A stretch of DNA of 41,577 nucleotides from a virus, in the IMG/VR virus record IMGVR_UViG_3300020131_000076, positions 1 to 41,577 of that record; one strand, written 5' to 3'. Below the pieces are notes generated by a model. It was given only the letters and a program-made list of their open reading frames with translations, made no database searches and was not told the DNA's origin. Every line of letters starts with the position of its first letter. The first letter of the stretch is position 1. A program made the translations under genes and the position numbers. Below are positions 5,650-41,577 of the stretch, one piece after another.

Positions 5650-5653
5650 AGCA

Positions 5654-5794: not shown

Positions 5795-5803
5795 AAAATC
5801 CTT

Positions 5804-5995
5804 TCACCCAACTCTGTTAAACTGGAATTTGCTGTTGGGTAATAACTGGGTGATAAGTGGCTTTTTCTTGGGTTTTGAGTATTTCCTTTTGATACAGGAC
5901 TGACATAATTTTGATCTGAATGTTAGGAAGATGTCTCCACAGTCGATACACATGGCCTCGTGCTTTGGCCTATGTGAGGCAGATCTTCTGAACAT
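5804..5995 (-). CDS. Basic zinc-ribbon protein
   Basis: 63 residues with CIDC (about 16-19) and CQSC (about 32-35) spaced as in a zinc ribbon, followed by a Lys-rich stretch (KRKYSKPKKKP). Start ATG 5995 with GGAGAAAGGTTAT. Likely binds nucleic acid; exact role unknown. Confidence 0.7.
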   Translation of the reverse strand: MFRRSASHRPKHEAMCIDCGDIFLTFRSKLCQSCIKRKYSKPKKKPLITQLLPNSKFQFNRVG

Positions 5996-6011
5996 ATAAC
6001 CTTTCTCCTCA

Positions 6012-25373: not shown

Positions 25374-27821
25374 TTATTGGATAAGTTTCTCACTAAGAAT
25401 AATTGAAGGGTTTCTAAGTGATTTTAACTTCAGACCAGCCATACCCGATGTGTTAAATGGATCTAAGTCCGTGCCCCAAATATCAGCAGCCGACAAAACC
25501 AGTGGGGTCATGACACCTGTTGGTTTTCCATCCTTCCATACATCCAAACCAGTTACAGCATCGGTGGTGGTAGTGAGTGCATTCCCAGCGTTGTAGAAAT
25601 CATCAAAAAACACCTTTGCTCCCACTGCACTAGAGATAGCGAACACTTTGATGCTTGCTAAACCTGATACATCCTCTGAGTTTTCAGCAGAAAGTGTTAT
25701 GGCTTGCCAAGCATCTGTCGTATTTGTCAGGGTTTGACTGGAGCTTGCAGAAGTTGCACCAGGCAGCCAAAGTTCAATACGACATACATCTGAACCAAAG
25801 GCAGCATTTTTATAAGCATAGCCAGTAAAGGTAATCACTGAGTTTGCGCGGGCATTAATATTGAAGTCCCACTCAAAGCCTGAGGTGGCATCTTCTGGAG
25901 CTAAATAACAAGAGAGTGAGCCAGACGTTCTTACTGTGGTATTGGTCAAGCCTGTTCCAGCAGAGCCTGCAATTCCAAAGGGGGTGTACCAAAAGTGATA
26001 GTTGTCTGTCTGATTGTACTTTTGAAAGGCAAGTTCTGAACCTGTGACCATACTTGTATAGGCGTTCACAAACGTAGCCGACCCGTCATCAAAAAGTGAG
26101 TTCTCAAAGACTACAGTGTTGTAGGTAGACGAGGCTGGGTCAATGAGACTTCCAGCAATTTTTCCTTTTGTTCCAAAATCACTATTTACAAAGCGTGTTA
26201 CGGTCATACCAGAGGGCTGGAATCCTCCTGCTCTTCCAGACTGAATGCTTGCGCCGGTAAAGGTAATATTGCCTGAATTTAGACCTATCAATGCCCATCT
26301 GCTTGCAGCTGCTCCGGTGGATGTTCCATGTAAATTCAAATTGTTGATGTTGATACCATAGCTTGAAGTAAAGTACATTCCATGACCAAGTGTATTCATG
26401 ATCAAAGGATTATTAAGTGTAATGTTGCGAGCTGATGAAAACGCCATACCGGCCAGGGCTCCTGAGGACGAACTTGCATATCGTGATACTGCCAAGTTGG
26501 TAAAAGTGCGTTGAGATGATATAGAAGTGAAGTTGAAGCCCGCAATAGTGAGAGTAGTCTCACTGTAAGCCGTACAGTAGTCAATGTTGACATAGTCCCC
26601 TATTGAAACACCAAAGCCATTGAACCTAACCCAATCAACATCGACATTTCCATTGTTTGTACTGGGTGTTGTTCCAAGTAGGATATAAGCAGTACGAGTT
26701 AGGTCAGTATTGGTGAAGATAAGGTTGCAAGATCTATTGAGAATTATCGAGCTTGTGGTATGTGTGTTTGATAGCCCTGACTCTGCACCACCAGCGGTTG
26801 CTGAAAGGGTGACAGAAGTTGCAGAGTTTATTGAACGAATAAACCTATATTCTGTTTCATTATAGTTCGTAGCTGTGTCTGATGTTGCTGATATAGCAAT
26901 TGGATCGTTCACAGCCAAGCCAAGGTCTGCTGCTAACTGGAGTGGACTTGCAGCAGTACCTAAGCCTGAAACAAACGTTGTCTGTTGGTTTGGCAATGTT
27001 CTACCATGCAGTTGAAGTGTATAAGTTCCAATGCAGTATAGCCCTACATTTCCACTCGTATTTGTAAACTCGAATTCGCTTGTGTAGCTTGAAGAAAGCG
27101 GAGAGCCTGAAGTTGCATCTAAAATTTTTCCTCCAGAACTTACCCCAATCTTTCCTTTAATTGCCAACTTTGTACTTGCTGAAGTATCTACAGAAAGAGT
27201 TCCGCCTCCTCCAATGGTGAGTGCTGCAGTAGCAGTTCGAAGTGAGGTGGATGAGGTAGTGGTAAGCGTATCTGCATCGGTACCTACGCCCTGGCTGGTT
27301 CCTGTGAGTGCAACAACTGGAGCAAAGCCCACAGTACTTCCAAAGATACTGGCATCATCAACGTTAAAGGTAGGAACTCCCGTGCGAGTATCCGCGACTT
27401 TATATTGAAAGTTCGTTCCAGCGGCATTTGCGGCTAGTGAAGCAGCACCAGCAGAACAGACACATTTCCAACGATATGCTCCGGCTGAAGTTGTAGCATA
27501 GGTATAGGGTGAGGAAACTTCAAAAGAGTACCACCCCGGCCCCCCAGTAAGTGTGGAAACATCAATCACAACGGTACAGGATTTGTCTACAGTATTTTCT
27601 TGAAGGGTAAAAGTTAATGTTCTAGAAGTAGGAATGGCGGTGATGTTGAACGCCAAATGTGTGACTTGATCAGTGGTGTTTGGAGCTGTCCAGGTATCGC
27701 TGAAAGAACCGGTTGTAACGGAAACAGTACTTGTAGCGTGAGCGGATGGGGTGTTAGCTATACGTGCCCAAGTACTTGAGTCTGACCAGTCGCCGGAGGC
27801 TTTAGCGAGATATTGTGGCAT
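25374..27821 (-). CDS. Large Ser/Thr-rich beta-helix surface protein
   Basis: 815 residues, extraordinarily rich in Thr and Ser. About 1-130 forms a beta-sandwich module (WSDSSTWARIANTPSA). About 150-330 has a G8-like region (LAADLGLAVNDPIAIS, then RFIRSINSATSVTL). About 370-560 looks like a right-handed parallel beta-helix (short repeats with N/I ladders such as ININNLNLHGTSTG), and the C-terminal part (about 600-730) is a jelly-roll-like carbohydrate-binding module. It lies among head genes, not tail genes, so it may be a head fibre or decoration. It is an attractive substrate for the phage glycosyltransferases (inference). Confidence 0.75.
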   Translation of the reverse strand: MPQYLAKASGDWSDSSTWARIANTPSAHATSTVSVTTGSFSDTWTAPNTTDQVTHLAFNITAIPTSRTLTFTLQENTVDKSCTVVIDVSTLTGGPGWYSFEVSSPYTYATTSAGAYRWKCVCSAGAASLAANAAGTNFQYKVADTRTGVPTFNVDDASIFGSTVGFAPVVALTGTSQGVGTDADTLTTTSSTSLRTATAALTIGGGGTLSVDTSASTKLAIKGKIGVSSGGKILDATSGSPLSSSYTSEFEFTNTSGNVGLYCIGTYTLQLHGRTLPNQQTTFVSGLGTAASPLQLAADLGLAVNDPIAISATSDTATNYNETEYRFIRSINSATSVTLSATAGGAESGLSNTHTTSSIILNRSCNLIFTNTDLTRTAYILLGTTPSTNNGNVDVDWVRFNGFGVSIGDYVNIDYCTAYSETTLTIAGFNFTSISSQRTFTNLAVSRYASSSSGALAGMAFSSARNITLNNPLIMNTLGHGMYFTSSYGININNLNLHGTSTGAAASRWALIGLNSGNITFTGASIQSGRAGGFQPSGMTVTRFVNSDFGTKGKIAGSLIDPASSTYNTVVFENSLFDDGSATFVNAYTSMVTGSELAFQKYNQTDNYHFWYTPFGIAGSAGTGLTNTTVRTSGSLSCYLAPEDATSGFEWDFNINARANSVITFTGYAYKNAAFGSDVCRIELWLPGATSASSSQTLTNTTDAWQAITLSAENSEDVSGLASIKVFAISSAVGAKVFFDDFYNAGNALTTTTDAVTGLDVWKDGKPTGVMTPLVLSAADIWGTDLDPFNTSGMAGLKLKSLRNPSIILSEKLIQ

Positions 27822-28751: not shown

Positions 28752-29585
28752 TTATGATCCACTCCAAATAAGAGTGTTATTTCTAGGGAATAAACCATCA
28801 ATAACTTCTTCCAAAAAACACCGGCAGCGAATATGTGCTGGTGGTCTTAAATACACATTTGCAAAAAGAGAATCTGTGTTAACTATGGTGTTGTGCAATG
28901 GCTCACAGATTTGACACACTCTTTCATCCATGACTGTTACCCAGCGCAGTTGTCGAACCCCATTTCTCTTAAAAGTTTCATACTCCACAGCATTTACTGC
29001 ATTTGCCAATTCTGTTTGAGCTATCATTTCTGCGCGTACTGGTGAAATAGATTTAAATTCAGCTTCAATCAGTTTTGCAGTCTCGTAACTTGTTAATAAA
29101 TCTTCTCTGGCTTGAGTAATGAGCTTTGAAAGTGTTGCCTTTGTAGTGTTGTCCACACTTGCTATGAGAAGGTTTGTGTGGTCAGCTAGGAAAGCAGTAA
29201 CACCTTCATTAGTTAACTCAAAGCTGGCATCAATTCCCATCTTTTCTAACGCTGCTTGACCGCCTTCTTTACCTGACCAAATCAGAAAATCTAGTACAGT
29301 ACTTCCGTTTTCTTCTTCAAAAACGATATTAAAGGCACGAAACACTTTTCCTAGCAAAGTCACAATCAACGGATTAGCTTCTGACTTGGCTGTTAAGTTA
29401 AACGCCTCCTCAATAATGGTTGGATGTTCAATCACCTCTCTTACTTGTCTTAGTATGGTTTTCTCAACTCCACGCAAAAACTTTTTGTACTCTTGTTTAG
29501 CCTCAGCTTCATCAAGAGCAACATTCTGACCAAGCTCATAGCGAGCTCTTTTAGCTAGAATGAGTGCTGAACTGATTAAGGACAT
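28752..29585 (-). CDS. MuF-like minor head protein
   Basis: 277 residues. The C-terminal domain carries the MuF/SPP1 gp7 signature: RAEMIAQTELANAVNAVEYE, then RWVTVMDERVCQICEPLHN and PPAHIRCRC, with zinc-binding-like Cys/His. These proteins ride on the portal and enter with DNA. Overlaps the portal gene by 35 bases. Confidence 0.88.
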   Translation of the reverse strand: MSLISSALILAKRARYELGQNVALDEAEAKQEYKKFLRGVEKTILRQVREVIEHPTIIEEAFNLTAKSEANPLIVTLLGKVFRAFNIVFEEENGSTVLDFLIWSGKEGGQAALEKMGIDASFELTNEGVTAFLADHTNLLIASVDNTTKATLSKLITQAREDLLTSYETAKLIEAEFKSISPVRAEMIAQTELANAVNAVEYETFKRNGVRQLRWVTVMDERVCQICEPLHNTIVNTDSLFANVYLRPPAHIRCRCFLEEVIDGLFPRNNTLIWSGS

Positions 29586-31224
29586 GCGTTAGTTTTTCTA
29601 ATGTTTTTAACGTTTGAGCTTTCTTAGTAAGATAGGGGTCGAATACTGCATTAACCTGATCTTTGGTCTTAGCTACTTCAAGCTGCTTAAAAATCTCTTC
29701 TACCATCCAAGCATCAAGATATTCACTTTCAAACTTTTTGAAGGGCTTGTTATCTTTTAGACATTTCTTGGAGTTTTTAAACCACTTAATAAGGTCTGCT
29801 TTTTGAGCTTCATCTAGCTCAACTTCTTCATCCTTTTCCTCTTTATCTGGCGCTACCTTTTCTTCCTCAACATCATTTGTTTCTTCAGGAGGATTTAAAA
29901 GTTGTGAAACCAACTTGACGTTGCCCTCTACATAGTGACCAAGGCCGATAGGATCTAACCCTTCCTCAGCTCGAACTTCATCAACACTTAACACACCACT
30001 TCGCAGCTTAATTTCCATTACTTCTGCTTCAAGCTTTGCGTCAATGGGATCTAAGTCTTTAAACTTAAAGCGAATATCTGTAAAACCAAAATCATATTGG
30101 ATAATGTCAGTAAAGACTTCCTCAAGCATGGTGGCTAATGGCCTCATACCTCTTTCTTCACCTAAATTCTGCTGAGTTTGCCCATTTGCTTTAGTCACCT
30201 TGTCGGTGTCACCAATGTCCTGAGGTGGTACACCAAATACTGCACATGTCTGTAAAAGGAGCCATTTTTCAAACCGTTCAAATCCTATGTCTTGAGGCTT
30301 CTTAGCTGCAGTGTAGTTGAACCCTTTAGGTACCATTTTGATACCTTGCTGCATTATGGTATTACCCGCCATCATGGCATTAAAGTATTCTTGAAACTCT
30401 TTAATCTGATTTACCGTCCAACCTTCTGGTAGTTCTCCAAAACCTTCTGGAACGCTGCCATCGGTAAAGAATGCCCTAGTGTACAAAGCTTCTTTGAGTG
30501 CTGATTCAACCTGAATAATGAGTGATTCAAGAGGTGACAAACCGTACAAAGAGTTAGTTCTATACCCTCTCGTTATGTAAATCAGCTCATCCTGTGTGAG
30601 CTCAGCTTTTTTTTGACCATTTATGATTTGGATGAAAGCAGGAGTGGGCGGAAGTGGTAACCTACCATACTCATCTGAGAGAACTTGGATAGTTGCAGAA
30701 TCTACTAGCTTTAACTCACTTAAAAACTGACCACCTCGAGTTCGCAATCTCTCTAATGCGAAACTCCCAACTACCAGGTAATCTTCAAGAACCGCTTCAA
30801 TGAGTTGACGATATTTGGTTCGGTAACCAAGGGGGCTTTTGAAAAACTGTTTGAGTACGTACACTTTAGGATCGTCTTGACTAAGCTTTTTCTGTTGATC
30901 CTCTGGAACGAAAACATAATCTAATTTAATGATTTTGCTTTTAAGGTAGTCAATACAAGCTCTGGCAATAGAGTAGGTAACTGAGAAACCTCTTAGCACA
31001 TCATAGGCTATTCTGCCTTCAGGCTTTTCTTTGACTCGAGCATCGGAGTAGAGCTGATTAACGTAAGGGACGTTGAACTGAAAAGTTTTTGAGTCCTGTT
31101 TAGGCTTCAAGGGTTCTAGCTGTTTTGCGATCTCTAATTTAACTGTTTTGCGTAAGTCTTTGGAGAGCTGTTTGAAGATCAGTTCCGGTGGATAGTTGTT
31201 TAATGAGGGAATCTGGTTGGCCAT
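29551..31224 (-). CDS. Portal protein (HK97-type)
   Basis: 557 residues. Core features: FSVTYSIARACIDYLKSKI, LVVGSFALERLR, GLSPLESLIIQVESALK, FGVPPQDIGDTDKV, typical of HK97-family portals, the 12-subunit ring through which DNA is packed. A long acidic C-terminal extension (about 440-485) is followed by a helical tail. Start ATG 31224 has AAGGAAAACC; the gene overlaps TerL by 86 bases, an unusually long overlap. Confidence 0.9.
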   Translation of the reverse strand: MANQIPSLNNYPPELIFKQLSKDLRKTVKLEIAKQLEPLKPKQDSKTFQFNVPYVNQLYSDARVKEKPEGRIAYDVLRGFSVTYSIARACIDYLKSKIIKLDYVFVPEDQQKKLSQDDPKVYVLKQFFKSPLGYRTKYRQLIEAVLEDYLVVGSFALERLRTRGGQFLSELKLVDSATIQVLSDEYGRLPLPPTPAFIQIINGQKKAELTQDELIYITRGYRTNSLYGLSPLESLIIQVESALKEALYTRAFFTDGSVPEGFGELPEGWTVNQIKEFQEYFNAMMAGNTIMQQGIKMVPKGFNYTAAKKPQDIGFERFEKWLLLQTCAVFGVPPQDIGDTDKVTKANGQTQQNLGEERGMRPLATMLEEVFTDIIQYDFGFTDIRFKFKDLDPIDAKLEAEVMEIKLRSGVLSVDEVRAEEGLDPIGLGHYVEGNVKLVSQLLNPPEETNDVEEEKVAPDKEEKDEEVELDEAQKADLIKWFKNSKKCLKDNKPFKKFESEYLDAWMVEEIFKQLEVAKTKDQVNAVFDPYLTKKAQTLKTLEKLTHVLNQFSTHSS

Positions 31225-32605
31225 GGCTTTGGTTTTCCTTGTAGAAGTCTAGAATGCTGTTTCTCGTCCCATAGGTTGCATAATGTGCTATGACTAATGC
31301 GTCAGCATAGTCTGGAGAGTGCAGACCAAGCTTTTTCATCTTGTCTTTACCTACTATCTTGAGCCTACCCTTGCTTGTTACCTCATAAAGTATGGTTGGT
31401 AACTCAGCCATTAGCTGATGGTAAGCGCCAATATTTATTTGACTTTGTTCAAAGTCCTCTCTCAAAGACCAAAATATTTCGCTTTTTAGATTTTCAAATC
31501 TTTCACCGTCTTTTGCTGATTCCCCAAAATTAACAGGCAAAACATTTTTCTTTTGTTCTTGCAGCATGTCTACTACACCACCACCAACACCTGAGTCATC
31601 AACAGCTATTAACGAGACATTAAAATCACTTGCTAACTTGTTTATCACTCCTACGGTTGTTGTTGTGTTCTTACCCTGGTAACCCTCTAAGTGAATTACC
31701 TGTTTGCCTTCCATTACAACAAAAGCCGTATGATCATCCCCATACCTAGCAACGTCCACGCCTAAAACTCTTTTATCTTGATCACTATGAGATATAGCAG
31801 TTTGCTGCGCTCGTTCAACCCAGAAAAGTGGGATCAAAGTATCATTTCCCTCTTCTGGAAAATCACCTGCAACACGAGACTTAAAAATAGGAGAATTTTC
31901 ACCCCATTCAATTTTTCTTTCATCAATCCATTCCTTGGTGACAAGTCCTGGGTAAAGCAACTCACCCGAGGTGACATTAGGGCAGTCATAACAGCTAATC
32001 TTGATCTTTTCCCAGATTGGAGATTTAAAAGCGTCATAAAAGTTACCAATAGGAATAGTAGGATTACCTATTGCTAGAAAACGAGTCATTCCTGAGGTAA
32101 GTAAACCTTCTGCAGCTTCCCATATAAATGGCTGAATACCCATAGCTTCATCAAAAATAACAAGGATGTGAGGCGAGTGATGACCTTGAAACTTGGTTGG
32201 GTCATCGGTGCTATAACCAATAGCAAAATGGTCAGCTGTTATTTTCCATTCAGTTTGGAGAAGCTTTCCCCCTAACGGATACTTTGAAGTGGCATATTGA
32301 GTTGCTATTTCAGTCCACAATAGCTTCTCGACTTGTTGCCAGGTGGGTGCAGTAGTTATGACTTTTGATGGACGAAAGGCAGTTAAGAACCAGATAGCGA
32401 TTCGTGCAGCTGTCCATGTCTTGCCAACACCATGACCAGAACGTACAGCCACACGTTTGTGGTTTTTAACAGCATTCATTACCTGGGCTTGCTTGTCCCA
32501 AGGTTTAGACCCACCCAATATGTTTTCACAAAACCATACGGGATCTTCAATCTGTTTGCTCAGCTGTTGAATCTGAGCCTGAGTTAAGTTGAGCAAGGAG
32601 TCCAT
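31139..32605 (-). CDS. terL: Terminase large subunit
   Basis: 488 residues. Walker A at about 56-63 (SGHGVGKT), Walker B ILVIFDEAMG (about 147-156), coupling motif AIGNPT, then a nuclease domain with acidic residues in GVDVARYGDD, AVDDSGVGGG and HSPDYADALV. It pumps and cuts DNA into proheads through the portal. The start ATG lies inside the TerS gene, a 59-base overlap, so the two are co-translated. It belongs to the group with an RNase H-like nuclease; packaging strategy (cos or pac) is not visible. Confidence 0.93.
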   Translation of the reverse strand: MDSLLNLTQAQIQQLSKQIEDPVWFCENILGGSKPWDKQAQVMNAVKNHKRVAVRSGHGVGKTWTAARIAIWFLTAFRPSKVITTAPTWQQVEKLLWTEIATQYATSKYPLGGKLLQTEWKITADHFAIGYSTDDPTKFQGHHSPHILVIFDEAMGIQPFIWEAAEGLLTSGMTRFLAIGNPTIPIGNFYDAFKSPIWEKIKISCYDCPNVTSGELLYPGLVTKEWIDERKIEWGENSPIFKSRVAGDFPEEGNDTLIPLFWVERAQQTAISHSDQDKRVLGVDVARYGDDHTAFVVMEGKQVIHLEGYQGKNTTTTVGVINKLASDFNVSLIAVDDSGVGGGVVDMLQEQKKNVLPVNFGESAKDGERFENLKSEIFWSLREDFEQSQINIGAYHQLMAELPTILYEVTSKGRLKIVGKDKMKKLGLHSPDYADALVIAHYATYGTRNSILDFYKENQSHGQPDSLIKQLSTGTDLQTALQRLTQNS

Positions 32606-32963
32606 GAATAGTATCTAAGCGCTTTCCGTCACTAGTGACATCAACGTTATCTTTCCATTTAAATCTATTTTTCATGTTGAAAATCCACGCGGTTGGGTTA
32701 AATGCTTTTCCACCCCACATACCATCTATACCTTGCTTCTCCCAATACAAAAGATTACAACGCTCTGCTTGTTCTATTGCCTCAATATCAAAATCTTTTG
32801 GATACAGCTTGAGGTAACGTCTAAAGGTTTGGGGATCACAGTAAGGGAAACTCTCTTTACTTAATCCGTTAGAAAGATGTTCACACCACTTATTGCAAAG
32901 CTCACGTCTAGATTGCTTGGTCTTAAATTTTTCTTTGTTTTTTGAGCCCTTTGGAGCTGGCAT
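32547..32963 (-). CDS. terS: Terminase small subunit
   Basis: 138 residues. Basic N-terminus (PKGSKNKEKFKTKQSRREL), HTH-like middle (YCDPQTFRRYLKLYPKDF), and the block NPTAWIFNMKNRFKWKD, common in small terminase proteins. It recognises phage DNA and gives it to TerL. There is no ribosome site; a promoter-like pair (ATGACA, 16 bp, TATACC) ends 9 bases before the ATG. Confidence 0.8.
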   Translation of the reverse strand: MPAPKGSKNKEKFKTKQSRRELCNKWCEHLSNGLSKESFPYCDPQTFRRYLKLYPKDFDIEAIEQAERCNLLYWEKQGIDGMWGGKAFNPTAWIFNMKNRFKWKDNVDVTSDGKRLDTIHGLLAQLNSGSDSTAEQTD

Positions 32964-33283: not shown

Positions 33284-34762
33284 TTACAAATATTTTTGCT
33301 GATGAAGTTTACACTTTTTAATCTTCTTGCTGATGCCTGTTTGAAGACATTCTGGACACAGATTGTTTCGTCCTAGTTTCAATTCTCCAGAGGTAGGTGC
33401 AACATTAAGGATTCTCAACTGATCATTTACTAGGCAAGCTTCTTCAAATACTTTAGTCCACTTTCGGTTTTCATTCGCCCATGTGTGTTCTTGAGCCCAA
33501 GTATACGCATTTTCGGTTATTGTTCGGACAATGCTCGGGTTTTCGTAGCCCCATACCAAAGCCTTTACAGCACTCTCTACGTTAGTAATGGGACGAGGTA
33601 CTTCGTTATCATCTCTGCCTAAACAAATGTATTCTGTATCAGTAGTCCCTGCATAAAAAGGAATTCCTCTCATTGTTTCTAGATCCTGACCTTCATTTTC
33701 AAGTCCAAATATTTCTTTAATTGACGTGTGAGCCGGAGCGTAAATAGGAGTCTTACACGCCATAGCTTCCGTAATTGATAACCCCCACCCTTCACCAAGG
33801 GATGTAGAAATGACAGCATCTGCCATGTTGTAAACCTCATTAACAACAGACAAAGGATAGCCGACAGCAGGGTTAAACTTTCTAGGTACTGCAAAGTCTC
33901 CTAGCTCCAAGCCAATCATTTTAGCCATGTCAAATATATTGCCGCCAACATCATTGGGGTTACAGTGAAGGTATAAGAAAGCACTGGGGACTTTTTCTTT
34001 AAATGCTTTGTACACTTGCAGTGTTCTGAAGAGATCTTTTCTAGGCTGGTTGCGATTAACATTGACCAATAGGTAACTGTCTTCTTTCCCTAGCTTTCCG
34101 AGAAACTTCTTTTTTAACTCTCTGCGTTTTTCAGGTGGCAGAGGGTAAAAGTCACTGACATTAGTCCCATGATAAATGACGTTAGTTCTTTTTTCTAAAT
34201 CTTGATCCTTTGTATCAAAACGTATCATTTCACTTAGGCCATAGTCACAGTAAGCAACGGGAAAATCACTTAATGCAATTGACTCAGTAACCCATTCTTG
34301 TTTCAGTCTTCCATCAACTGGGAAATACCCTACCCATACAAAATGATTATGCTTATGCTCCTTACTGCTAAGCGTATTCTTCTGCATCTCCTTTATGGCA
34401 GTGGCAAGACTTCTATTTGAATCTGCAGCCTTAGTTCCAATAATAAAGTGATCTTGAATAGTAAAAAGTATGTCATACGGAGGGAATAACACGGGATGAG
34501 AGCCATTTAAAACGCTCAAAAGCACGTCTCTGCCAAACATATCACCCGTCATAGGGCTTCTAGCAGGGATAATCTTATTTATATAAGGAAATTCAGTATC
34601 AAACTTCTCACGATCAAAAGCACCATCGAAATTAATACCCACCATATCAAACTCGTATAAACCGGTTGCATAAAGTTCCTTTAGTATGTTTCTGGAAACC
34701 TGTGCAAAACCAGTTGCAACTGTAGGTGAGTCTGCCCACACCAAAACACGGCGCTTATTCAT
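33284..34762 (-). CDS. GT4-type glycosyltransferase
   Basis: 492 residues from ATG 34762, overlapping the previous gene by 8 bases, with GGAGGGGAG upstream. N-terminal Rossmann half (VLVWADSPTVATGFAQVSRNI) and C-terminal half with the retaining GT4 signature (MADAVISTSLGEGWGLSITEAMA), where the EGWG-x5-E motif binds the sugar nucleotide. A C-terminal zinc-knuckle-like tail (CPEC, then KCKLHQQ, last 26 residues) is added, an unusual extension. Last gene of the cassette; it would transfer a sugar from an NDP or UDP donor. Acceptor unknown. Confidence 0.88.
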   Translation of the reverse strand: MNKRRVLVWADSPTVATGFAQVSRNILKELYATGLYEFDMVGINFDGAFDREKFDTEFPYINKIIPARSPMTGDMFGRDVLLSVLNGSHPVLFPPYDILFTIQDHFIIGTKAADSNRSLATAIKEMQKNTLSSKEHKHNHFVWVGYFPVDGRLKQEWVTESIALSDFPVAYCDYGLSEMIRFDTKDQDLEKRTNVIYHGTNVSDFYPLPPEKRRELKKKFLGKLGKEDSYLLVNVNRNQPRKDLFRTLQVYKAFKEKVPSAFLYLHCNPNDVGGNIFDMAKMIGLELGDFAVPRKFNPAVGYPLSVVNEVYNMADAVISTSLGEGWGLSITEAMACKTPIYAPAHTSIKEIFGLENEGQDLETMRGIPFYAGTTDTEYICLGRDDNEVPRPITNVESAVKALVWGYENPSIVRTITENAYTWAQEHTWANENRKWTKVFEEACLVNDQLRILNVAPTSGELKLGRNNLCPECLQTGISKKIKKCKLHQQKYL

Positions 34763-35561
34763 ATTTATCTGCTCCCCTCCAATGTTTCCAACTCTTTTCA
34801 GCTTCGTTATAAGGGGCTGAGTACCCTTGCCCGTCCATAACATCTGCTGGCATCGCACCCCACTTAAGAATGAAGTAGGATTGGTTTTTTCTAAAACCAT
34901 CGCTAATGATGGGTTGAAGTTGAGGGTTATTTCTGATGGTCTGTGAGGCTAAATGATAGTAGGGGGCTTTGCTAAGTCTTTTAGCATGTAAACCAGCCTT
35001 CAAAATCCTGATATGGCAATCGTTATCTTCAAAATACGCAGGGTAAAAGTTTTCGTCAAAGTAACCTACTTTCTCCACAAAATCTCTTTTGATCATAAAA
35101 CAGCTAAAGTCGGGACCTTCTTCTCTCCAGTTAGTAATTGGCCTTGAGTCATGGTCGGTATCACCTGGATTCTGTAACTGCCTAAATTCTTCAAGCGAGA
35201 GTTTAGGACACACATTATCACCGGTAACCATGGCATACCCCAATGTATCAATGCCTTCAATCAAGGCGTCAATTGTTGCTGTATGAAAAATCACATCATT
35301 GTTAGGAACGAAAATATACTCGCACTCAGGATCTAACAATGCTTCCCGAATTGCCAAGTTCCACGCTTCTGATAAGGCAACCTGTGGTGAGAATCGTTTA
35401 TACAGTACAGCTGGGTTGTGTTTAGCCCACTCTTCAGTACCGTCTGTACTATTTTGATCCATTACATGCAAAGCGTATGAATACCGCGTTGTGATAGAGC
35501 TAATAGCTTGTTTAGTTAGATCAAGGTTGTTGAGCACAACCATTATGATGTGTAGCTTCAT
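34755..35561 (-). CDS. GT2-type glycosyltransferase
   Basis: 268 residues from ATG 35561, four bases after the previous stop. GT-A fold signs: LHIIMVVLNNLDLTKQAI, DQNSTDGTEEW, IFVPNNDVIF (DxD-like NND), FSCFMIKRDFVEKVGYFDE, and FEDNDCHIRI (catalytic ED region). Resembles rhamnosyl- or related GT2 enzymes. Works in the cytoplasm with nucleotide sugar. Part of the cassette. Confidence 0.87.
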   Translation of the reverse strand: MKLHIIMVVLNNLDLTKQAISSITTRYSYALHVMDQNSTDGTEEWAKHNPAVLYKRFSPQVALSEAWNLAIREALLDPECEYIFVPNNDVIFHTATIDALIEGIDTLGYAMVTGDNVCPKLSLEEFRQLQNPGDTDHDSRPITNWREEGPDFSCFMIKRDFVEKVGYFDENFYPAYFEDNDCHIRILKAGLHAKRLSKAPYYHLASQTIRNNPQLQPIISDGFRKNQSYFILKWGAMPADVMDGQGYSAPYNEAEKSWKHWRGADKYE

Positions 35562-35565
35562 AGGC

Positions 35566-35769
35566 TTACTCTTCAATATTTTTTTGGGCGTCAAATTCAA
35601 CTGAGTAACTGAATGGCAGACCTCTGAACAAAATCAGTTTCGATGATTTCTTGATTTTCACAAACAGTTCACCATCTTGCTTTGAATAGAAAATGTCTTG
35701 GACATCGTCTTGCCCAACAGTAAAACTATCTATTTCACCGCTTGGATAAATGACTGAAATACTTTTCAT
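35566..35769 (-). CDS. Hypothetical 67-residue protein in the glycan cassette
   Basis: ATG 35769 overlaps the methyltransferase stop as ATGA, which decides the start. Short beta-rich protein (SISVIYPSGEIDSFTVG, then GELFVKIKKSSKLILF). No domain recognised. Conserved tight coupling to its neighbours suggests it works with them. Confidence 0.65.
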   Translation of the reverse strand: MKSISVIYPSGEIDSFTVGQDDVQDIFYSKQDGELFVKIKKSSKLILFRGLPFSYSVEFDAQKNIEE

Positions 35770-36314
35770 TTCACAAACTCCATTTCTAATATCCACCAGT
35801 CCCGTGCTATGTTGGCACCAGAGTAACGGGGATCTGCGTAATTTGGTAACTGAATAACTGACCAATCAATTGACTTCTGCCTACCATCCCATCCGCTCAA
35901 CCTGTCTCGAAGCTCATCATTGTCATATCCCCACTTGTGGAGGTCTTCAACGTGGCCTTGGAATGCTCCATAGGTATTTACGTTATGAATGTAGGTATCA
36001 ATTCTTCCATCTAACCAGGCTTTGTTAATTTCCTTTAGGTTAGGTACAAAGACAGCAAGCAACCCGCCTTTCTTTAAGACCCTGTGCCACTCACCTGCAT
36101 ATCTTGCAATGTCATGAAGAGCGATATGCTCCACTAGGTGATGAGCAACAATAATATCGACGCTCTCGTTGTCAAACATACTAAGATCGCCAGCGTCAGT
36201 TTTGATGTCCAATGGATATTGCTTACCTTCACCGTCAAACTGTTCGATTAGATCGATGTTGACCCAAGGTTTAGGAAATGGACGCTGACCAGAAGCTAAA
36301 TTAATTTTAATCAT
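35766..36314 (-). CDS. Class I SAM methyltransferase A
   Basis: 182 residues. Motif I is LASGQRPFP, then WVNIDL, the acidic SVDIIVAHHLVEHI (motif IV), and WHRVLKKGGLLAVFVP (motif V/VI), of the Methyltransf_11 type. It lacks an added acceptor domain; C-terminal half is Trp/Tyr-rich. Probably methylates sugar or a lipid-linked or protein-linked glycan in this cassette. Confidence 0.85.
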   Translation of the reverse strand: MIKINLASGQRPFPKPWVNIDLIEQFDGEGKQYPLDIKTDAGDLSMFDNESVDIIVAHHLVEHIALHDIARYAGEWHRVLKKGGLLAVFVPNLKEINKAWLDGRIDTYIHNVNTYGAFQGHVEDLHKWGYDNDELRDRLSGWDGRQKSIDWSVIQLPNYADPRYSGANIARDWWILEMEFVK

Positions 36315-36910
36315 TAAGCCCTTTCCAGTAAGAAGAGAGATAAGTCTTGATTTCTTGAGGCAGCTACTTCTTTTAAGCCAGCTTCATCAAATATTCTCCT
36401 CCACTCTAAATCCGTATGGGTGGTTTCATGAGGTTGATCAAAATGCTGCCATTGCTCATTAGGGACAAGGGCAAAGAATAAGCCATTAGGCTTGAGCATA
36501 TTCTTTATATTTGATAAAGCGCTTTGAATTGAAATGCAGTGCTCAACGGAGCCTACACTTGTGATGTAATCAAACTGACCGAGCTCTTTATCTTGAACTT
36601 CTATGTCTGCCACTTTAAACTCTGAGCCTGGGCATCTTTTTTTAGCTAATTCAATTCCCACCGAACTTAGATCAATACCAACACAACTTACTAACTCTTC
36701 AGCAGTTTTAATAAAATGTCCTGCTCCACACCCCACATCAAGAAGTCTTTTTTCTTTATTAGCTTGGGTTACACCCATAAATCCAAGATAGCTCAAGGCA
36801 ACTTCCCGAGGACAATCCCAGCCGTCTGTCATATCGGTATATTTGTTGTCGTACCAGTGCCCTAGATCTGAGCTGTTAGTAAATGCTTCCAGTTGGTGTG
36901 TATCTGTCAT
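36314..36910 (-). CDS. Class I SAM methyltransferase B
   Basis: 198 residues. Clear motif I RLLDVGCGAGHF (about 54-65), GIDLSSVGIELAKKR, then QFDYITSVGSVEHC and LKPNGLFFALVPN. Starts at ATG 36910 overlapping the previous gene (ATGA) and ends by TAATG. A small-molecule or sugar O-methyltransferase by family; exact target unknown. Confidence 0.87.
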   Translation of the reverse strand: MTDTHQLEAFTNSSDLGHWYDNKYTDMTDGWDCPREVALSYLGFMGVTQANKEKRLLDVGCGAGHFIKTAEELVSCVGIDLSSVGIELAKKRCPGSEFKVADIEVQDKELGQFDYITSVGSVEHCISIQSALSNIKNMLKPNGLFFALVPNEQWQHFDQPHETTHTDLEWRRIFDEAGLKEVAASRNQDLSLFLLERA

Positions 36911-37476
36911 GCAAGCCTTTGAAAGATGCCGAGCTTATTACCGTATCGACCAACAAACTTCCATTGGCCGTAATGTTTTTCCATATATTCTGTGACTGCT
37001 GCATAAACACCAGGGAGTGAGTCATGACCATAATCATCAAAGAGTGCATAACCATTTGCTTTAACTCGAGGTAACCAAGTATCACAATCAACTAAAACAG
37101 CTTCTTTTTCATGATCACCATCGATATGAACTAAATCTAAATTTCCTTTTAGCTTCTTACCAGCTTCTACTGAGGATGTCGAAAGCAAGGTGAATTCCCA
37201 GCCATACTTGTTCATTTGGGACTCAACATGTGCTTTTGCTTGTGCTGAATACTCTCCCACCCACGCATCAACTGCCGTGAATGAAAACTTACGCTCCTTT
37301 GCTACCTCAGCAATGACGCTGGTTGATCTGCCAAACTCAACCCCAACTTCAACGATCTTTGAGCCCACAGACAAAGAAATAAGCGTGTTATAGAGCGCCA
37401 ATGCTTCTTCACGATTAAATGCTGTTTCGTGACTGCTTTCTTCTACTATTTGATACACTTCATCAAAGGTTCTCAT
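36907..37476 (-). CDS. Class I SAM methyltransferase C (Methyltransf_24-like)
   Basis: 189 residues. KIVEVGVEFGRSTSVIAEVA is motif I, LDLVHIDGDHEKEAVLVD is the metal/SAM block, and VKANGYALFDDYGHDSLPG follows. This is the Methyltransf_24 plan found in metal-dependent O-methyltransferases that work on sugars in glycan and natural-product clusters. Start ATG 37476 has AAAAGGTAAAAAGT. Confidence 0.85.
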   Translation of the reverse strand: MRTFDEVYQIVEESSHETAFNREEALALYNTLISLSVGSKIVEVGVEFGRSTSVIAEVAKERKFSFTAVDAWVGEYSAQAKAHVESQMNKYGWEFTLLSTSSVEAGKKLKGNLDLVHIDGDHEKEAVLVDCDTWLPRVKANGYALFDDYGHDSLPGVYAAVTEYMEKHYGQWKFVGRYGNKLGIFQRLA

Positions 37477-38134
37477 ACTTTTTACCTTTTCTGCTGATAA
37501 CTGTTACTGGTTTCTGAGCTTGAACAAAGTGATCGCCACCAATAGAGGTGTGTTCATAGCACCCTGACATACCTGCCTGATCTAAAAACTGAATAAGCTT
37601 CTTGGTAGTTAGCCCCTCATAGTGTTCACTGCCACCTCCAAGTTCACCGTGTGGTTCATGCTTGTCATTTGAGCAGGTAAGTAAAAACGTTCCGCCCTTT
37701 TCGAGTACTCTCCAAGCTTCCTTTAAGGTAGAAAGAGGATCGCTGTCATGCTCCATCATGTTTAAACACATAACTAAATCAAAGCTTTCATTTTCAAACC
37801 TGAGTGAGTGGGAATCCATAACCTCATCCACGTTATTGCCTGGGAGAAGGTCAACACCAACATAGTTTTGAGTTGATGAAACTCTTTGAAGCCAAGTAGG
37901 GGGATGGCCTAAGAAGTCATAAGTCCGCATATTGCCATTAATATCAAGCGAGCCGATGTCCAATATTTTCTTGTAATCTCTCTGAGTAACCGGAAAACTA
38001 AAGCCTGCCTTCTTAAATTCTTTGTAAACCTCAAACTCACTAATTTGACCTGCTCCCCATGCCTCGCCACTAAAACAGTTCTGACCATCCTTGATGGTGA
38101 GTAATACTACGAAATCATGTGCTGCTCCGTGCAT
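37463..38134 (-). CDS. Class I SAM methyltransferase D
   Basis: 223 residues. I chose ATG 38134 with AAAGGA just before it; an in-frame ATG at 38164 would overlap the previous gene by 23 bases. KILDIGSLDINGNMRTYDF is a motif I variant, followed by YVGVDLLPGNNVD, SFDLVMCLNMMEHDSDP and VLEKGGTFLLTCSND. The C-terminus has GGGSEHYEGLTTKKLIQFL. Fourth methyltransferase of the cassette; target unknown. Confidence 0.83.
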   Translation of the reverse strand: MHGAAHDFVVLLTIKDGQNCFSGEAWGAGQISEFEVYKEFKKAGFSFPVTQRDYKKILDIGSLDINGNMRTYDFLGHPPTWLQRVSSTQNYVGVDLLPGNNVDEVMDSHSLRFENESFDLVMCLNMMEHDSDPLSTLKEAWRVLEKGGTFLLTCSNDKHEPHGELGGGSEHYEGLTTKKLIQFLDQAGMSGCYEHTSIGGDHFVQAQKPVTVISRKGKKYENL

Positions 38135-38141
38135 ATGTCCT

Positions 38142-38861
38142 TTAGGTAACAATAACCCCTTCATGATTTTTGAATGTTTCTGGACCCACAGCTATATCCC
38201 CATAGCTATCAGTCTTGCCACAAGGAATAACCACTTCAGGTTCTAAAGAAGCAACTTCTAAACCAATTGATTTCATTCTCTGACAGTACTCCCAGTCATC
38301 AGATCTACCTGTTTTCTTCTCCATGTCTTCTTGTGTGTGGAAAACTCCAAGTCTATCCCACAATTCCCAGGTAATAAGATGTGAATAACCACTTACAGCA
38401 TCCTTCAAGCCAACAGAGTAACCTGGTAAGCTCGTTAATTCCCATGTTTGATTCGATCTCAAATAGGGATGGCAAGAGCCACCAAGCAGACCAATAGATC
38501 TTTTACTCACCTCTTTGTATGCCTGAAGTAAAGTGGGAAGCCAGTTAGCTTTAAAGTACACATCATTGTCACTGAAGTAGAGATAATGGCCTCTTTTGCC
38601 AGACTTTGAGATATAGTCACAGGCGTGGTTTCTTGATCCTCCTGGTCCAATGTTTTTCTCATTGTGCAACAGTGTGAATTTGTATTGGTTGCTTAATTCC
38701 TTAAGAAGCAGGTGGGTTTCTTCGGAGGAGCAGTCGTTAACGACTGTAAGGGAAAAGATGTCAGTGTCGGTGTTAGAAAACAAAGAGTCGATACATTGTT
38801 TTGTATGCTCTGGACGGTTAAAAACAGGGATCACAATATCAACAATCGGCCTCATATTCAT
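38142..38861 (-). CDS. GT2-type glycosyltransferase
   Basis: 239 residues. IVDIVIPVFNRPEHTKQCI, VVNDCSSEETHLL, NIGPGGSRNHAC and LYFSDNDVYF (DND metal site) are standard GT-A features. Later TGRSDDWEYCQRM gives the likely catalytic acids. It starts a sub-block: the previous gene stops 40 bases upstream and a promoter-like site lies between, so ATG 38861 may begin a leaderless mRNA. Confidence 0.87.
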   Translation of the reverse strand: MNMRPIVDIVIPVFNRPEHTKQCIDSLFSNTDTDIFSLTVVNDCSSEETHLLLKELSNQYKFTLLHNEKNIGPGGSRNHACDYISKSGKRGHYLYFSDNDVYFKANWLPTLLQAYKEVSKRSIGLLGGSCHPYLRSNQTWELTSLPGYSVGLKDAVSGYSHLITWELWDRLGVFHTQEDMEKKTGRSDDWEYCQRMKSIGLEVASLEPEVVIPCGKTDSYGDIAVGPETFKNHEGVIVT

Positions 38862-38866
38862 AGCTG

Positions 38867-38900
38867 ACTATACTAACCACCCTACTTAGATCAAGCCCTA
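38867..38900 (-). promoter_or_regulatory. Promoter-like site with shared 16-bp element (copy B)
   Basis: Minus strand: TAGGGCTTGATCTAAG (38900-38885) includes TTGATC (38894-38889), then a 16-base spacer and TATAGT (38872-38867), 5 bases before ATG 38861 and without a ribosome site. The 16-mer matches the site before 41108 at 15 of 16 positions. Confidence 0.55.
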
Positions 38901-38901
38901 C

Positions 38902-39594
38902 TTACTCGAGATGTGCTATATTTTCTCTTCTCCACTTTTCGTAAAAGAACTCCATTTTCTGTGCATTTGGATCTCCCCCTTTGGGACCGCTAAAATGAAT
39001 TGAGCACGGCTTAATTTTTGTCTCTTGGTACACCCAACTCTCGTCTACCTCCTCTTGATTAACGTTAGTCATGTTTAGAAACAATCTGGCTTGATGGTCG
39101 ATTACCATATCAACCATTCTGTTTACATAGAGTAAATGCCACCCTTCTTGATCTGTTGTGCCTTTATATGTTTCCTTCATGACGGTTAATAGTTCAATGA
39201 TCTTTTCTCTTGGTCCGATGAATTGACTCGAGCAAATATGTCTCAGTGAGGTGGGAGCCTCTGGAAACTTTGTCATGTCGTAAAGGTCCGTAGCGGGATA
39301 GTGATCTCTATTGCCTGAAACCACAACTCTATTCCAGTAGTTACATTTGTAGACATTAAAAAGATTGTTCTTGAGTATCCAGCTATCCCAGGCATCTGTG
39401 AACATCACATATTTGTGCTTAACGTTGGGTAAGTATTCCAAAATAGAATCAATTTTTACCTGCCTATAGTCTCTAAACCACTTTGCTTGTCCATAAAAGG
39501 CAAGTTCTAAACCGTGGTACTCACACGATGTCACTAGCTTTGTTGCATTAGCTCTACCACCAAAATCTGGAGTGATGATCAAAAAGTCAGACAT
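38902..39594 (-). CDS. PLOD-type glycosyltransferase
   Basis: 230 residues. It has the layout of the GT domain of lysyl hydroxylase/PLOD-like and procollagen-type transferases: LIITPDFGGRANATKLVTSC, KIDSILEYLPN, YVMFTDAWDSWIL (metal-binding D-A-x-D site), VVVSGNRDHYP, FIGPREKIIELL and CSIHFSGPKGGDPN near the end. In eukaryotes these use UDP-Glc or UDP-Gal on protein hydroxylysine; viral and bacterial members are less known. Presence beside GT2 enzymes suggests protein-linked sugar building. Confidence 0.75.
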   Translation of the reverse strand: MSDFLIITPDFGGRANATKLVTSCEYHGLELAFYGQAKWFRDYRQVKIDSILEYLPNVKHKYVMFTDAWDSWILKNNLFNVYKCNYWNRVVVSGNRDHYPATDLYDMTKFPEAPTSLRHICSSQFIGPREKIIELLTVMKETYKGTTDQEGWHLLYVNRMVDMVIDHQARLFLNMTNVNQEEVDESWVYQETKIKPCSIHFSGPKGGDPNAQKMEFFYEKWRRENIAHLE

Positions 39595-40027
39595 TCTTTA
39601 TCCTTTGTTTGATGTCAGTGGTTGAGTTCTTCGTTACTCGTGGTACGTAACATAAGGACAAACCCATGCTATCTAACCATTCCCAAGTGAAATTCATTTG
39701 CTTTAAGTAATCCTTCTCATGCCAGTCTGATCCTATAACGACCAGCTTCACGTCCTTTAGAGTCTTAATGAAAACGTCAAAGTTTTTAGTGCTATCTGCA
39801 CCTCCTACATTCTTAATTACTTTCGAAACATATCTACAGTTTAGTAGCATTTGCTTTCGCTCTTCAAAGTTCATAATGGGAGCTCTTCCTTTAAACTGCT
39901 GAATGAATTCATCGGTATTTAAAGCAACAATGACTTCACCTTCACCAGCTAATTGCTTGCACTTTTTTAAAAGCTCTAAGTGTCCTGGGTGAAAGAGGTC
40001 AAATGTACCACCTGTGTATACGTTCAT
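39587..40027 (-). CDS. Glycerol-3-phosphate cytidylyltransferase-like (TagD-like)
   Basis: 146 residues. GGTFDLFHPGH carries the HxGH nucleotide-binding site (H13, H16), GSDWHEKDYL matches the TagD GDDWEGKFD block, and RVTKNSTTDIKQRI is the second signature (ISTT-like). TagD makes CDP-glycerol from CTP and glycerol-3-phosphate for teichoic acids. No glycerophosphate polymerase is present, so the phage may make CDP-glycerol, or a related activated alcohol, to decorate a glycan. Other members use phosphoethanolamine or other sugars, so substrate is a best guess. Confidence 0.82.
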   Translation of the reverse strand: MNVYTGGTFDLFHPGHLELLKKCKQLAGEGEVIVALNTDEFIQQFKGRAPIMNFEERKQMLLNCRYVSKVIKNVGGADSTKNFDVFIKTLKDVKLVVIGSDWHEKDYLKQMNFTWEWLDSMGLSLCYVPRVTKNSTTDIKQRIKNV

Positions 40028-40809
40028 AGGTAGAAGGGTAAACTGATATTGTGATTACCTGGTCTCCACTTTTCATAAAGTGGTAAATGTGACTCTGCGT
40101 GTATCTCTGCCTTGGTCTTACCAAATGCTGTAGCCCAGTCCTCCCCCACATCAGTTCTACCGCCATAGTGAATAACATCCATGTTTATCACAATGTTTTG
40201 ATACCCTTGATCTAAAGAGTCTAAACAAAGGTTGTTGTCATAGTTGTGGTGCACTGATTCATTCCAAAACTCTAGGCTGTGGCGAGCAATTAAACTAAAG
40301 CCGTCTAACACTGCACATCTTTGAAATTCTTCCGCAAACTGTCTGTGTCCATGAACTTGTGGGTCTAGTCTGCACCTATCCCCAGCCATAGTTCCGACTC
40401 TAACTAGTTGTTGCATCCTGTAAGGGGATCTATAGATATCAGGGGTTCCAATGCCTGAAGCTCCAAAGAAACCGGCTACTCCTACACTTCCAAGTGCTCC
40501 TAAAATCTTTTTGATTTTTGTATCCCAACCCTGCTCAAACATCTCGATATCTGAATGAGTGTAGAAGAGGTAGTCAGCAGTACTAAACTCTCTTGCTTGG
40601 TTGTAAGCGTGGGGTAGGCCAACATTGTGCTCATTTCTAATTATGTGAATGTTGGACAGTGTGCTGAAATACTCACTTAATGGTGGGTTTGATCCATTGT
40701 CGATCAGAATGTATGTGTTTAAATCATCTTCTGTACACAGCAGCGATTCTAACGTTTTCCTAGCTGACTCGTGTTGATTTAGAATTGGAATTACAATGTC
40801 CATTCTCAT
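40024..40809 (-). CDS. GT2-type glycosyltransferase
   Basis: 261 residues. MDIVIPILNQHESARKTLES, LIDNGSNPPLSEYF, NVGLPHAYNQA, LFYTHSDIEMF (SD metal site), a central insertion, CAVLDGFSLIARHSLEFW and VIHYGGRTD. GT-A fold of the GT2 family. It is the first glycosyltransferase of the cassette and overlaps its neighbours by 4 bases on each side. Confidence 0.87.
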   Translation of the reverse strand: MRMDIVIPILNQHESARKTLESLLCTEDDLNTYILIDNGSNPPLSEYFSTLSNIHIIRNEHNVGLPHAYNQAREFSTADYLFYTHSDIEMFEQGWDTKIKKILGALGSVGVAGFFGASGIGTPDIYRSPYRMQQLVRVGTMAGDRCRLDPQVHGHRQFAEEFQRCAVLDGFSLIARHSLEFWNESVHHNYDNNLCLDSLDQGYQNIVINMDVIHYGGRTDVGEDWATAFGKTKAEIHAESHLPLYEKWRPGNHNISLPFYL

Positions 40810-41108
40810 ATGAACTTCCTTTGTTTATCCATACCTGCTCTTTTTCTCCCTGACGGATCAGCAGTGTATTTGTCGTTATGAATGACGTTACCTTTTTCAT
40901 TTGTTTGGATTAGTGCTCCGCTAGGGTGTTGCCACATTGCATGTGGTTGATTTGAACCCATGCTATAGCGGCTATCGTAGATTCGGACAAGGTGAAACTC
41001 GAGGCAATGAGGGCATTGATATATGGAGTAACGTCTATTATCTAGACCAACTACTTCACCAATAAGGCTCCACTTCGTGGCAATTGGATAATGATCACAT
41101 TCACTCAT
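40806..41108 (-). CDS. Small zinc-ribbon-like protein heading the cassette
   Basis: 100 residues. C4 and H6 near the start and CPHC (about 32-35) with EFH form a probable zinc site. The C-terminal half is polar (GALIQTNEKGNVIHNDKY) and basic. No family recognised. First gene of the glycan block. ATG 41108 has no ribosome site; a promoter-like pair ends 9 bases upstream. Confidence 0.65.
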   Translation of the reverse strand: MSECDHYPIATKWSLIGEVVGLDNRRYSIYQCPHCLEFHLVRIYDSRYSMGSNQPHAMWQHPSGALIQTNEKGNVIHNDKYTADPSGRKRAGMDKQRKFI

Positions 41109-41369: not shown

Positions 41370-41577
41370 ATGTGTGATATGTTTGGATTGAGTTTGATCA
41401 AGTTCTTCTTAAGGCAGACAGAGCCTTGGAGAAGCATTTTTTTTGTCTTGTTTGCATTGGTGATTGCTTCACACTTCCTAACGGTGGTGACTAATCTAAA
41501 GAACGCTTTTTTGCCTACTGAGTCAGCTTCCAGGGTAGAAAACCATTACTTTGGGAATGTCACTTACATAACTCATA
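41370..41577 (+). CDS. Junction-spanning small membrane protein, N-terminal part
   Basis: ATG 41370 (MCDMFGLSLIKFFLRQTEPW) opens a frame that reaches the right end without a stop and continues at base 132 of the left end, for 88 residues in all. A positive N-terminus (KFFLRQTEPWR) is followed by a membrane span FFVLFALVIASHFLTVV (about 25-41), then a polar tail with two cysteines near the end, so it is probably a signal-anchor protein with the tail outside. A promoter and a structured leader precede it. Lone plus-strand gene: a candidate lysogenic-conversion or superinfection-exclusion protein (inference). Ribosome site weak (AAGTGAG). Confidence 0.72.
   Translation, partial: MCDMFGLSLIKFFLRQTEPWRSIFFVLFALVIASHFLTVVTNLKNAFLPTESASRVENHYFGNVTYITH
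41452..41577. repeat. Right copy of 126-bp terminal direct repeat
   Basis: Exact duplicate of positions 7-132. Removing one copy leaves a circular unit of about 41.44 kb. It lies inside the plus-strand membrane-protein gene that starts at 41370, not beside the terminase genes, so it is not an obvious packaging signal. Confidence 0.93.

Follow-up and report, generated by a model that had tools for sequence, protein, structure and literature searches.

This locus raises the question of why a phage carries a compact block of glycosyltransferase and methyltransferase genes next to its packaging genes. The window analysed here, 41,577 nucleotides in length, comprises positions 1 to 41,577 of the IMG/VR virus record IMGVR_UViG_3300020131_000076. 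A 127-bp terminal repeat indicates a complete circular genome, and the absence of a gene from it is therefore informative. The cassette occupies positions 33284–41108 on the minus strand. Of its twelve genes, five code for glycosyltransferases (three GT2, a PLOD-type and a GT4), four for class I methyltransferases, one for a nucleotidyltransferase and two for small proteins. Profile searches confirmed this inventory as originally proposed, every enzyme class passing a Pfam cut-off, the nucleotidyltransferase at superfamily level only. No flippase, sugar-nucleotide gene or DNA-base-hypermodification gene was found in the complete genome, nor was any lipid-carrier enzyme or polymerase recognised, and none of the cassette proteins displays a convincing membrane segment. 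The predicted reliance on host sugar donors agrees with the lack of sugar-nucleotide genes. From an integrase gene identified by Pfam, the phage is probably temperate, so that expression from a lysogen is possible.

On the minus strand, the cassette opens with sm100 (40806–41108), a small Cys/His-containing protein with no Pfam match and absent from relatives. It is followed by GT2a (40024–40809; PF00535, 53.0 bits; PF13712, 52.8 bits), the nucleotidyltransferase NT (39587–40027), the PLOD-type enzyme (38902–39594) and GT2b (38142–38861). The methyltransferases come next: MTa (37463–38164; Methyltransf_11, with a GSLDINGN motif), MTb24 (36907–37476; Methyltransf_24, sugar O-methyltransferase-like), MTc (36314–36910; Methyltransf_23, motif I intact) and MTd (35766–36314; Methyltransf_11). 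For MTd and MTa, recognition came mainly from the C-terminal portion of the class I fold. The small protein sm67 (35566–35769), GT2c (34755–35561; AYFEDND motif) and GT4 (33284–34762; Cys-rich C-terminus) complete the block. Beyond GT4, on the same strand, lie a small zinc-ribbon-like ORF, a TerS-like gene (32547–32963; assigned from its position and a 28% match in L173), the large terminase subunit TerL (31139–32605) and the portal protein (29551–31224). As predicted, the genes share one strand ahead of terminase and structural genes, and nearly all overlap, by 1–23 bp, with a single gap of 40 bp between GT2b and PLOD. Alignment with relatives and the overlap pattern made corrected starts more likely for GT4 (34762), GT2c (35561) and sm67 (moved from 35865 to 35769, giving an ATGA overlap with MTd), and apparent overlaps of 146 and 100 bp thereby become 8 and 4 bp. 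A promoter and terminator scan of the DNA scored below the shuffle mean and gave no support for either element.

The nucleotidyltransferase had been described as TagD-like. Superfamily membership (TagD/ECT; PF01467) is supported by intact HxGH and STT motifs, but the protein scored 71.8 bits against TIGR01518 (TagD), far below the equivalog cut-off of 165.4, and 56.3 bits against RfaE domain II (cut-off 181.5). Its best PDB relative is ethanolamine-phosphate cytidylyltransferase, followed by GCT. Assignment as glycerol-3-phosphate cytidylyltransferase is therefore not supported beyond superfamily level, and neither is the proposed glycerol-phosphate, as the genome has no phosphotransferase either.

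The PLOD-type enzyme was recognised by PF25342 with 43.3 bits (cut-off 27), and residues D67, D70 and H200, the conserved DxxD and His, are invariant across four sequences. Whereas AlphaFold prediction from the single sequence was unusable (pLDDT 34.7), the model obtained from four sequences (pLDDT 67.3) matched Mimivirus R699, the human LH3 glycosyltransferase domain and PBCV-1 A064R-D1. Single-sequence searches yielded no relatives, and a three-sequence query matched only L188, L180 and L284. Among 50 records, a set that did not include L180 and L188, PF25342 matched in this genome only. The longest Gly-X-Y run in the genome is 6, which speaks against a collagen-like acceptor, and no lysyl hydroxylase was recognised; the acceptor is therefore probably not collagen hydroxylysine. 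The presence of this enzyme places PLOD glycosyltransferases of the animal and giant-virus type in bacterial viruses. On a separate phage contig, an LH3-like hydroxylase/glycosyltransferase fusion was observed adjoining a collagen-like fibre gene.

In order to follow the cassette in relatives, the portal protein was used as query. The backbone GT2a...GT2b...MTd-GT2c-GT4 was found in six viral contigs (L172, L180, L182, L183, L184 and L188), its order unchanged and with terminase and portal again following it; two of these contigs, L172 and L183, are incomplete at the 5' side. MTd (48–58%), GT2c (43–58%) and GT4 (39–51%) are present in all six, GT2b (32–54%) in all except L183, and GT2a (42–58%) in L180, L182, L184 and L188, where it stands at the start of the cassette. 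Order and overlap are thus kept at 32–58% protein identity, in line with the idea of one functional unit. In L182, L183 and L184, TerL is only 22–26% identical to that of the window while cassette and portal (40–46%) are retained; judged from these sequences, the terminase has been replaced in three of the six relatives. Across L180, L182, L184 and L188, the 28 genes that directly precede the cassette on its 5' side are all unmatched in this genome, showing that the cassette tracks the late block.

Methyltransferases, PLOD enzyme and nucleotidyltransferase vary in their presence among the relatives. NT, MTc, sm100 and sm67 have no homologue in the close relatives, and MTa has one match of 31%. 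Homologues of MTb24 occur in L180, L182, L184 and L188 at differing positions; that of L180 also scores above the TylF cut-off, and together with the Methyltransf_24 assignment this makes the predicted sugar O-methylation probable. The claim that sugar-nucleotide genes are lacking holds for the complete genome but not for more distant relatives, whose cassettes include a DegT aminotransferase (L108) or an epimerase (L099, L108 and L114). A near-DNA search of GenBank phages gave no match, and searching 84,980 genomes with the portal protein revealed no prophage host. A 40% GT2c match on contig L265 of a Candidatus Omnitrophota MAG was too weak for a host assignment.

Genes of the GT4 and NT types occur widely across viral contigs, NT adjoining glycosyltransferases in phages. 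MCP, GT4, GT2 and nucleotidyltransferase follow each other in 38 of 80 viral contigs picked by NT alone, a set of related contigs forming 26 clusters at 80% identity. In NT-selected contigs of at least 9 kb, GT2c lies within 3 kb of NT for 35 of 35 genes (18.0 expected). In the GT4-selected control contigs, neither methyltransferases nor GT2 within 3 kb of GT4 were enriched compared with genes more than 6 kb away, and the argument consequently rests on the close relatives and the NT set rather than on GT4 neighbourhoods in general. Synechococcus phage S-CBS4 and Pontimonas phage phiPsal1 carry homologues of the trio GT4, GT2c and MTa inside their structural blocks, MTa adjoining GT4 in both.

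We consider it probable that the cassette is a virion-glycosylation module, whose soluble enzymes synthesise on virion proteins a short glycan bearing O-methyl groups. Encoded at the start of the late operon, these enzymes would use host sugar nucleotides to assemble a short heteroglycan stepwise on new virion proteins in the cytosol. At least one of the conserved GT2 and GT4 enzymes would initiate and lengthen the chain, to which the PLOD-type enzyme may contribute another single residue; as many as four methyltransferases would cap or tailor the glycan by O-methylation. The nucleotidyltransferase may supply one activated donor, CDP- or other NDP-linked, that the host may lack. The backbone is inherited together with the portal and capsid block. 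Relatives exchange the tailoring enzymes, which would alter the exposed cap and hence the particle surface. Capsid, tail tube or fibre are candidate acceptors, the Ser/Thr-rich proteins encoded at 25374–27821 and 13804–15762 being only suggestive, and the benefit could be shielding from binding proteins, tuning of adsorption or particle stability.

The original prediction had left the target open between virion proteins and the host envelope. Virion decoration is favoured by the lack of a convincing membrane segment, flippase or lipid-carrier enzyme and by similar genes among the late genes of unrelated phages, where comparable cassettes lie between MCP and neck genes. Soluble phage glycosyltransferases that modify envelope polymers do exist, such as TarM-like enzymes, and PHROGs files the present types under 'moron, auxiliary metabolic gene and host takeover'. 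With an integrase in the genome, remodelling of a host surface polymer, during infection or in a lysogen, for receptor masking or superinfection exclusion is conceivable, but the cassette is distant from the integrase and joined to packaging genes, a virion-linked location, and the complete genome has no recognised polymerase; we regard this explanation as unlikely.

That several genes were acquired independently and act on separate targets would fit the patchy occurrence of NT, MTc, MTa and the two small genes and the shifting position of MTb24. The conserved order and overlap of the backbone across six contigs argue against it: by its gene order the cassette is no chance accumulation of morons, and such an origin is very improbable. 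Still less credible is decoration of a modified DNA base. It was suggested by a TAGT-family (TET-associated) glycosyltransferase between cassette and TerS in L172 and L180 (sub-threshold in L182), a further TAGT-family match in the L023 record, ParB-like genes seen by eye in the same interval of relatives, and a C5-cytosine methylase adjoining the cassette of L108. The TAGT gene, however, sits outside the conserved backbone, and no cassette protein matches a DNA-modifying family. TAGT, C5-cytosine methylase and thymidylate synthase/hydroxymethylase were unmatched in the complete genome (PF00145, PF00303 and PF20691; positive controls matched), as was Tet_JBP (PF12851) in a search without positive control.

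A bolder extension of virion glycosylation, which we put forward tentatively and hold to be rather doubtful, is a modular 'glyco-barcode', where a conserved glycosyltransferase backbone with swappable methyltransferase, PLOD and nucleotidyltransferase genes would give the particle a tailored, possibly phosphate-bearing, multiply O-methylated glycan. The MCP-GT4-GT2-nucleotidyltransferase arrangement of many environmental phages would in that case represent a common but so far undescribed type of capsid glycosylation, drawing on an activated donor made by the phage. As a rule, phage particles are regarded as protein without further decoration. If the cassette functions as proposed under virion glycosylation, it would be common for uncultured environmental phages to make glycans for their own capsids, the caps differing between relatives, with effects on adsorption, on the survival of particles and on recognition. 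Both GT4-GT2-NT and the larger cassette would then be gene-defined pathways, reconstitutable and readable by mass spectrometry.

Among known systems, O-antigen conversion by GtrABC relies on a membrane flippase (GtrA), a bactoprenol glycosyltransferase (GtrB) and a multi-pass Gtr; the cassette proteins have no clear membrane segments, and GT2b matches a GtrB-like PHROG weakly. The PLOD-type enzyme shares Pfam family, fold and the conserved DxxD and His with the galactosylhydroxylysine glucosyltransferase of PLOD/LH3 and Mimivirus R699, but in this genome neither a lysyl hydroxylase nor a collagen repeat was found. In chlorovirus PBCV-1, the capsid glycan ends in a rhamnose that two virus-encoded O-methyltransferases cap (PMC9614988). 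Virus-encoded soluble glycosyltransferases and O-methyltransferases (A064R, A061L in PBCV-1; O-methylation being probable here) are common to both systems, whereas PBCV-1 is a eukaryotic virus with N-glycans, other glycosyltransferase families and no single compact cassette. The phiPsal1-like cassettes (MCP-GT4-GT2-MT/NT), for which no description as a system was found in a literature search, share homologues of GT4 and GT2c together with one of either MTa or NT, but place three genes after the capsid gene instead of twelve before the terminase.

Close parallels are offered by mycobacteriophages. Covalent glycan is reported on the capsids of Che8 and Rita (cluster F1; PMC11256854), and Corndog (cluster O) carries an O-methyltransferase and three glycosyltransferases between portal and protease (PMC4351075). 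Such late-block cassettes are thus already known and, with the wide spread of the GT4 and NT types, the rarity originally claimed was overstated. On the circularised Che8 map, the three glycosyltransferase genes gp108–110 immediately precede TerS, an equivalent slot; gp108 was judged by eye to be a GT2-methyltransferase fusion, and gp109 matches the GT2c profile weakly (1e-6), the other seven cassette profiles having no Che8 match. Che8 and Corndog have fewer genes (three and four), weak sequence similarity and, among their reported genes, no PLOD-type glycosyltransferase or nucleotidyltransferase. Here as there, the virion gene block contains or adjoins a cluster of at least two glycosyltransferases, and methyltransferase activity is encoded within the virion operon or at its border. 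Most likely the cassette makes a custom, methyl-capped sugar coat for the virus's own particles, as an enlarged version of the mycobacteriophage system.

The analysed sequence, an entire virus record, carries an exact terminal repeat of 127 bp (bases 6-132 and 41451-41577). As an overlap of this size is a typical assembler remnant on circular genomes, the genome is most likely complete, with a length of about 41.45 kb. An ORF on the plus strand, containing a hydrophobic segment, spans the circle junction. Terminase, portal, capsid, tape measure and Dit genes mark a siphovirus-like phage, which is probably temperate, given its tyrosine integrase; it also encodes RecT and an M23 peptidase. Along the minus strand of the circular map come an early block (8634 to 265), the cassette (41108 to 33284), the small (TerS) and large (TerL) terminase subunits and the portal, in this order. 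A Gly-rich tail-region protein (12274-13347) without Pfam or PHROG match is a possible adhesin candidate.

The gene classes named in the original prediction (three GT2, one PLOD-type and one GT4 glycosyltransferase (GT), four methyltransferases) were recovered with Pfam, PHROGs and NCBIfam. The transcription order is sm100 (a small protein), GT2a, NT (a nucleotidyltransferase), PLOD-type GT, GT2b, the methyltransferases MTa, MTb24, MTc and MTd, a small protein, GT2c and GT4. Adjoining genes share 1-23 bp; the exceptions are GT2b and the PLOD-type GT, which lie 40 bp apart, and GT2c, preceded by a gap of a few bases. Starts were revised after alignment with relatives for GT4 (34762), GT2c (35561) and the second small protein (35769).

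Six related viral contigs were obtained, L172 by portal search and five others via GT4 and MTd pair alignments. Their gene orders, with % identity to the window protein after each name and x for other genes, are GT2b54-MTd56-GT2c52-GT4 51-...-TerL56-portal49 in L172, which starts within GT2b; GT2a58-x-MTb24 29-x-PLOD29-GT2b52-MTd58-x-GT2c51-GT4 51-...-TerL57-portal49 in L180; GT2a46-two Methyltransf_24 (37, 27)-PLOD33-radical SAM-GT2b48-x-MTd55-x-GT2c43-x-GT4 39-...-portal38 in L188; GT2a53-MTb24 32-GT2b32-MTd54-GT2c58-GT4 40-...-portal43 in L182; GT2a42-GT2b33-MTb24 52-MTd48-GT2c49-x-GT4 40-...-portal42 in L184; and MTd55-GT2c56-GT4 42-...-portal40 in the truncated L183. The content, order, slot and conservation of the cassette are directly observed. 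Judged from these orders and identities, GT2a, GT2b, MTd, GT2c and GT4 make up a backbone kept in related phages, while MTa, MTc, NT, MTb24 and PLOD vary. TerL of L182, L183 and L184 is just 22-26% identical to that of the window and cassette and portal remain together, suggesting that the terminase was replaced between them. The 28 genes directly 5' of the cassette in L180, L182, L184 and L188 had no match to the window. Cpn60/GroEL-family chaperonin genes lie upstream of the cassette in L188 (623-2236) and in the more distant L108 (1769-3427). TAGT-family (TET-associated) GTs and, judged by eye, genes resembling ParB are inserted between the cassette and TerS in L172 (3797-5330), L180 (12178-13579) and L182 (10253-12561); the window lacks both.

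The PLOD-type GT scored 43.3 bits against a Pfam cut-off of 27. Its residues D67, D70 and H200, invariant in an alignment of four phage sequences, are the counterparts of the LH3 metal ligands. In structure comparison its predicted model, of moderate confidence (mean pLDDT 67), fits Mimivirus R699, the human LH3 glucosyltransferase domain and PBCV-1 A064R-D1, a capsid-glycan enzyme (PMC9614988). MTb24, of the Methyltransf_24 family, is a candidate for sugar O-methylation, as its counterpart in L180 additionally passes the cut-off of TylF, a macrocin O-methyltransferase. The predicted TagD-like cytidylyltransferase, NT, carries the nucleotidyltransferase superfamily motifs but falls below the family cut-offs for TagD and RfaE. 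A 19-residue hydropathy scan gave no convincing membrane segment in any cassette protein; GT2a attains 1.68 within a Gly/Ala-rich stretch. GT4 (34755-33284) has a Cys-rich C-terminal tail, LGRNxLCPxCLQxG...KKCKxH, conserved in L172 and similar by eye to the SEC-C zinc motif.

Another phage contig, L284 (IMGVR_UViG_3300012920_000604), encodes a collagen-like fibre of 886 aa (3-2663) with up to 193 consecutive Gly-X-Y triplets, 53 Lys at the Y position only and 62 Pro at the X position only. Next come genes for a 2OG-Fe(II) oxygenase, for an FkbM methyltransferase and for a 610-aa protein (5344-7176) in which GT25 and PLOD-GT are fused with a region weakly matching 2OG-Fe(II) oxygenases. This set, adjoining head-tail genes, has an LH3/ColGalT-like arrangement, of which no phage example was found in a limited literature search.

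In more distant contigs with portal and major capsid protein (MCP) of the window's type (L099, L108, L114/L116), this slot still holds GT2a, GT2c and GT4. FkbM methyltransferase (L099; homologous-looking gene in L108 and L114), epimerase (L099, L108, L114) and DegT aminotransferase (L108) genes also occur there. Synechococcus phage S-CBS4 and Pontimonas phage phiPsal1 have homologues of GT4, GT2c and MTa within their structural blocks; in Tetrasphaera phage TJE1, a methyltransferase, an epimerase, a kinase and a nucleotidyltransferase accompany GT4 upstream of terL. Among 80 viral contigs picked by NT similarity alone, which cannot be counted as independent, NT falling into 26 clusters at 80% identity and into 5 at 70%, GT4 was present in 52, GT2c in 57 and the order MCP-GT4-GT2-NT in 38. 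In those of at least 9 kb, 35/35 GT2c and 30/33 GT4 lay no more than 3 kb from NT, against expectations of 18.0 and 16.3 based on all genes. In Streptomyces phages, NT overlaps a GT gene. A limited literature search found no description of the MCP-GT4-GT2-NT arrangement. GT4 does not, as a general rule, predict a cassette of this kind, since in GT4-selected contigs methyltransferases and GT2 were no commoner within 3 kb of GT4 than more than 6 kb away.

The best-supported reading of the cassette, and a likely one, is virion glycosylation with O-methyl tailoring; we infer its enzymatic activity, glycan, acceptor and benefit. That the GTs glycosylate DNA is worth testing because L172 and L180 have TAGT-family GTs in the interval from cassette to TerS, but it is very improbable: profile searches of the window matched neither TAGT nor C5-cytosine methylase nor the thymidylate synthase family, and a Tet_JBP search, which had no positive control, likewise gave no match. 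Modification of the host envelope, conceivable for a temperate phage, is less likely, and the conserved gene order speaks against a loose set of morons.

Virion glycosylation by phage-encoded enzymes is already known as a kind. A capsid glycan was reported for mycobacteriophages Che8 and Rita (PMC11256854), such enzymes are reported to modify capsid and tail tube (PMC11600133, citing earlier work), and in mycobacteriophage Corndog the genes between portal and protease include an O-methyltransferase and three GTs (PMC4351075). On the circularised Che8 map, the GT genes gp108-110 lie directly before TerS and so occupy the slot of the cassette. Che8 gp109 matches the GT2c profile (1e-6), gp108 appears by eye to be a GT2-methyltransferase fusion, and gp110 shows weak similarity to a GT from a Streptomyces phage. 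New with respect to these systems are the cassette size, the PLOD-type enzyme, the presence of four methyltransferases, a conserved backbone combined with exchangeable tailoring genes, and the connection with the widespread MCP-GT4-GT2-NT arrangement.
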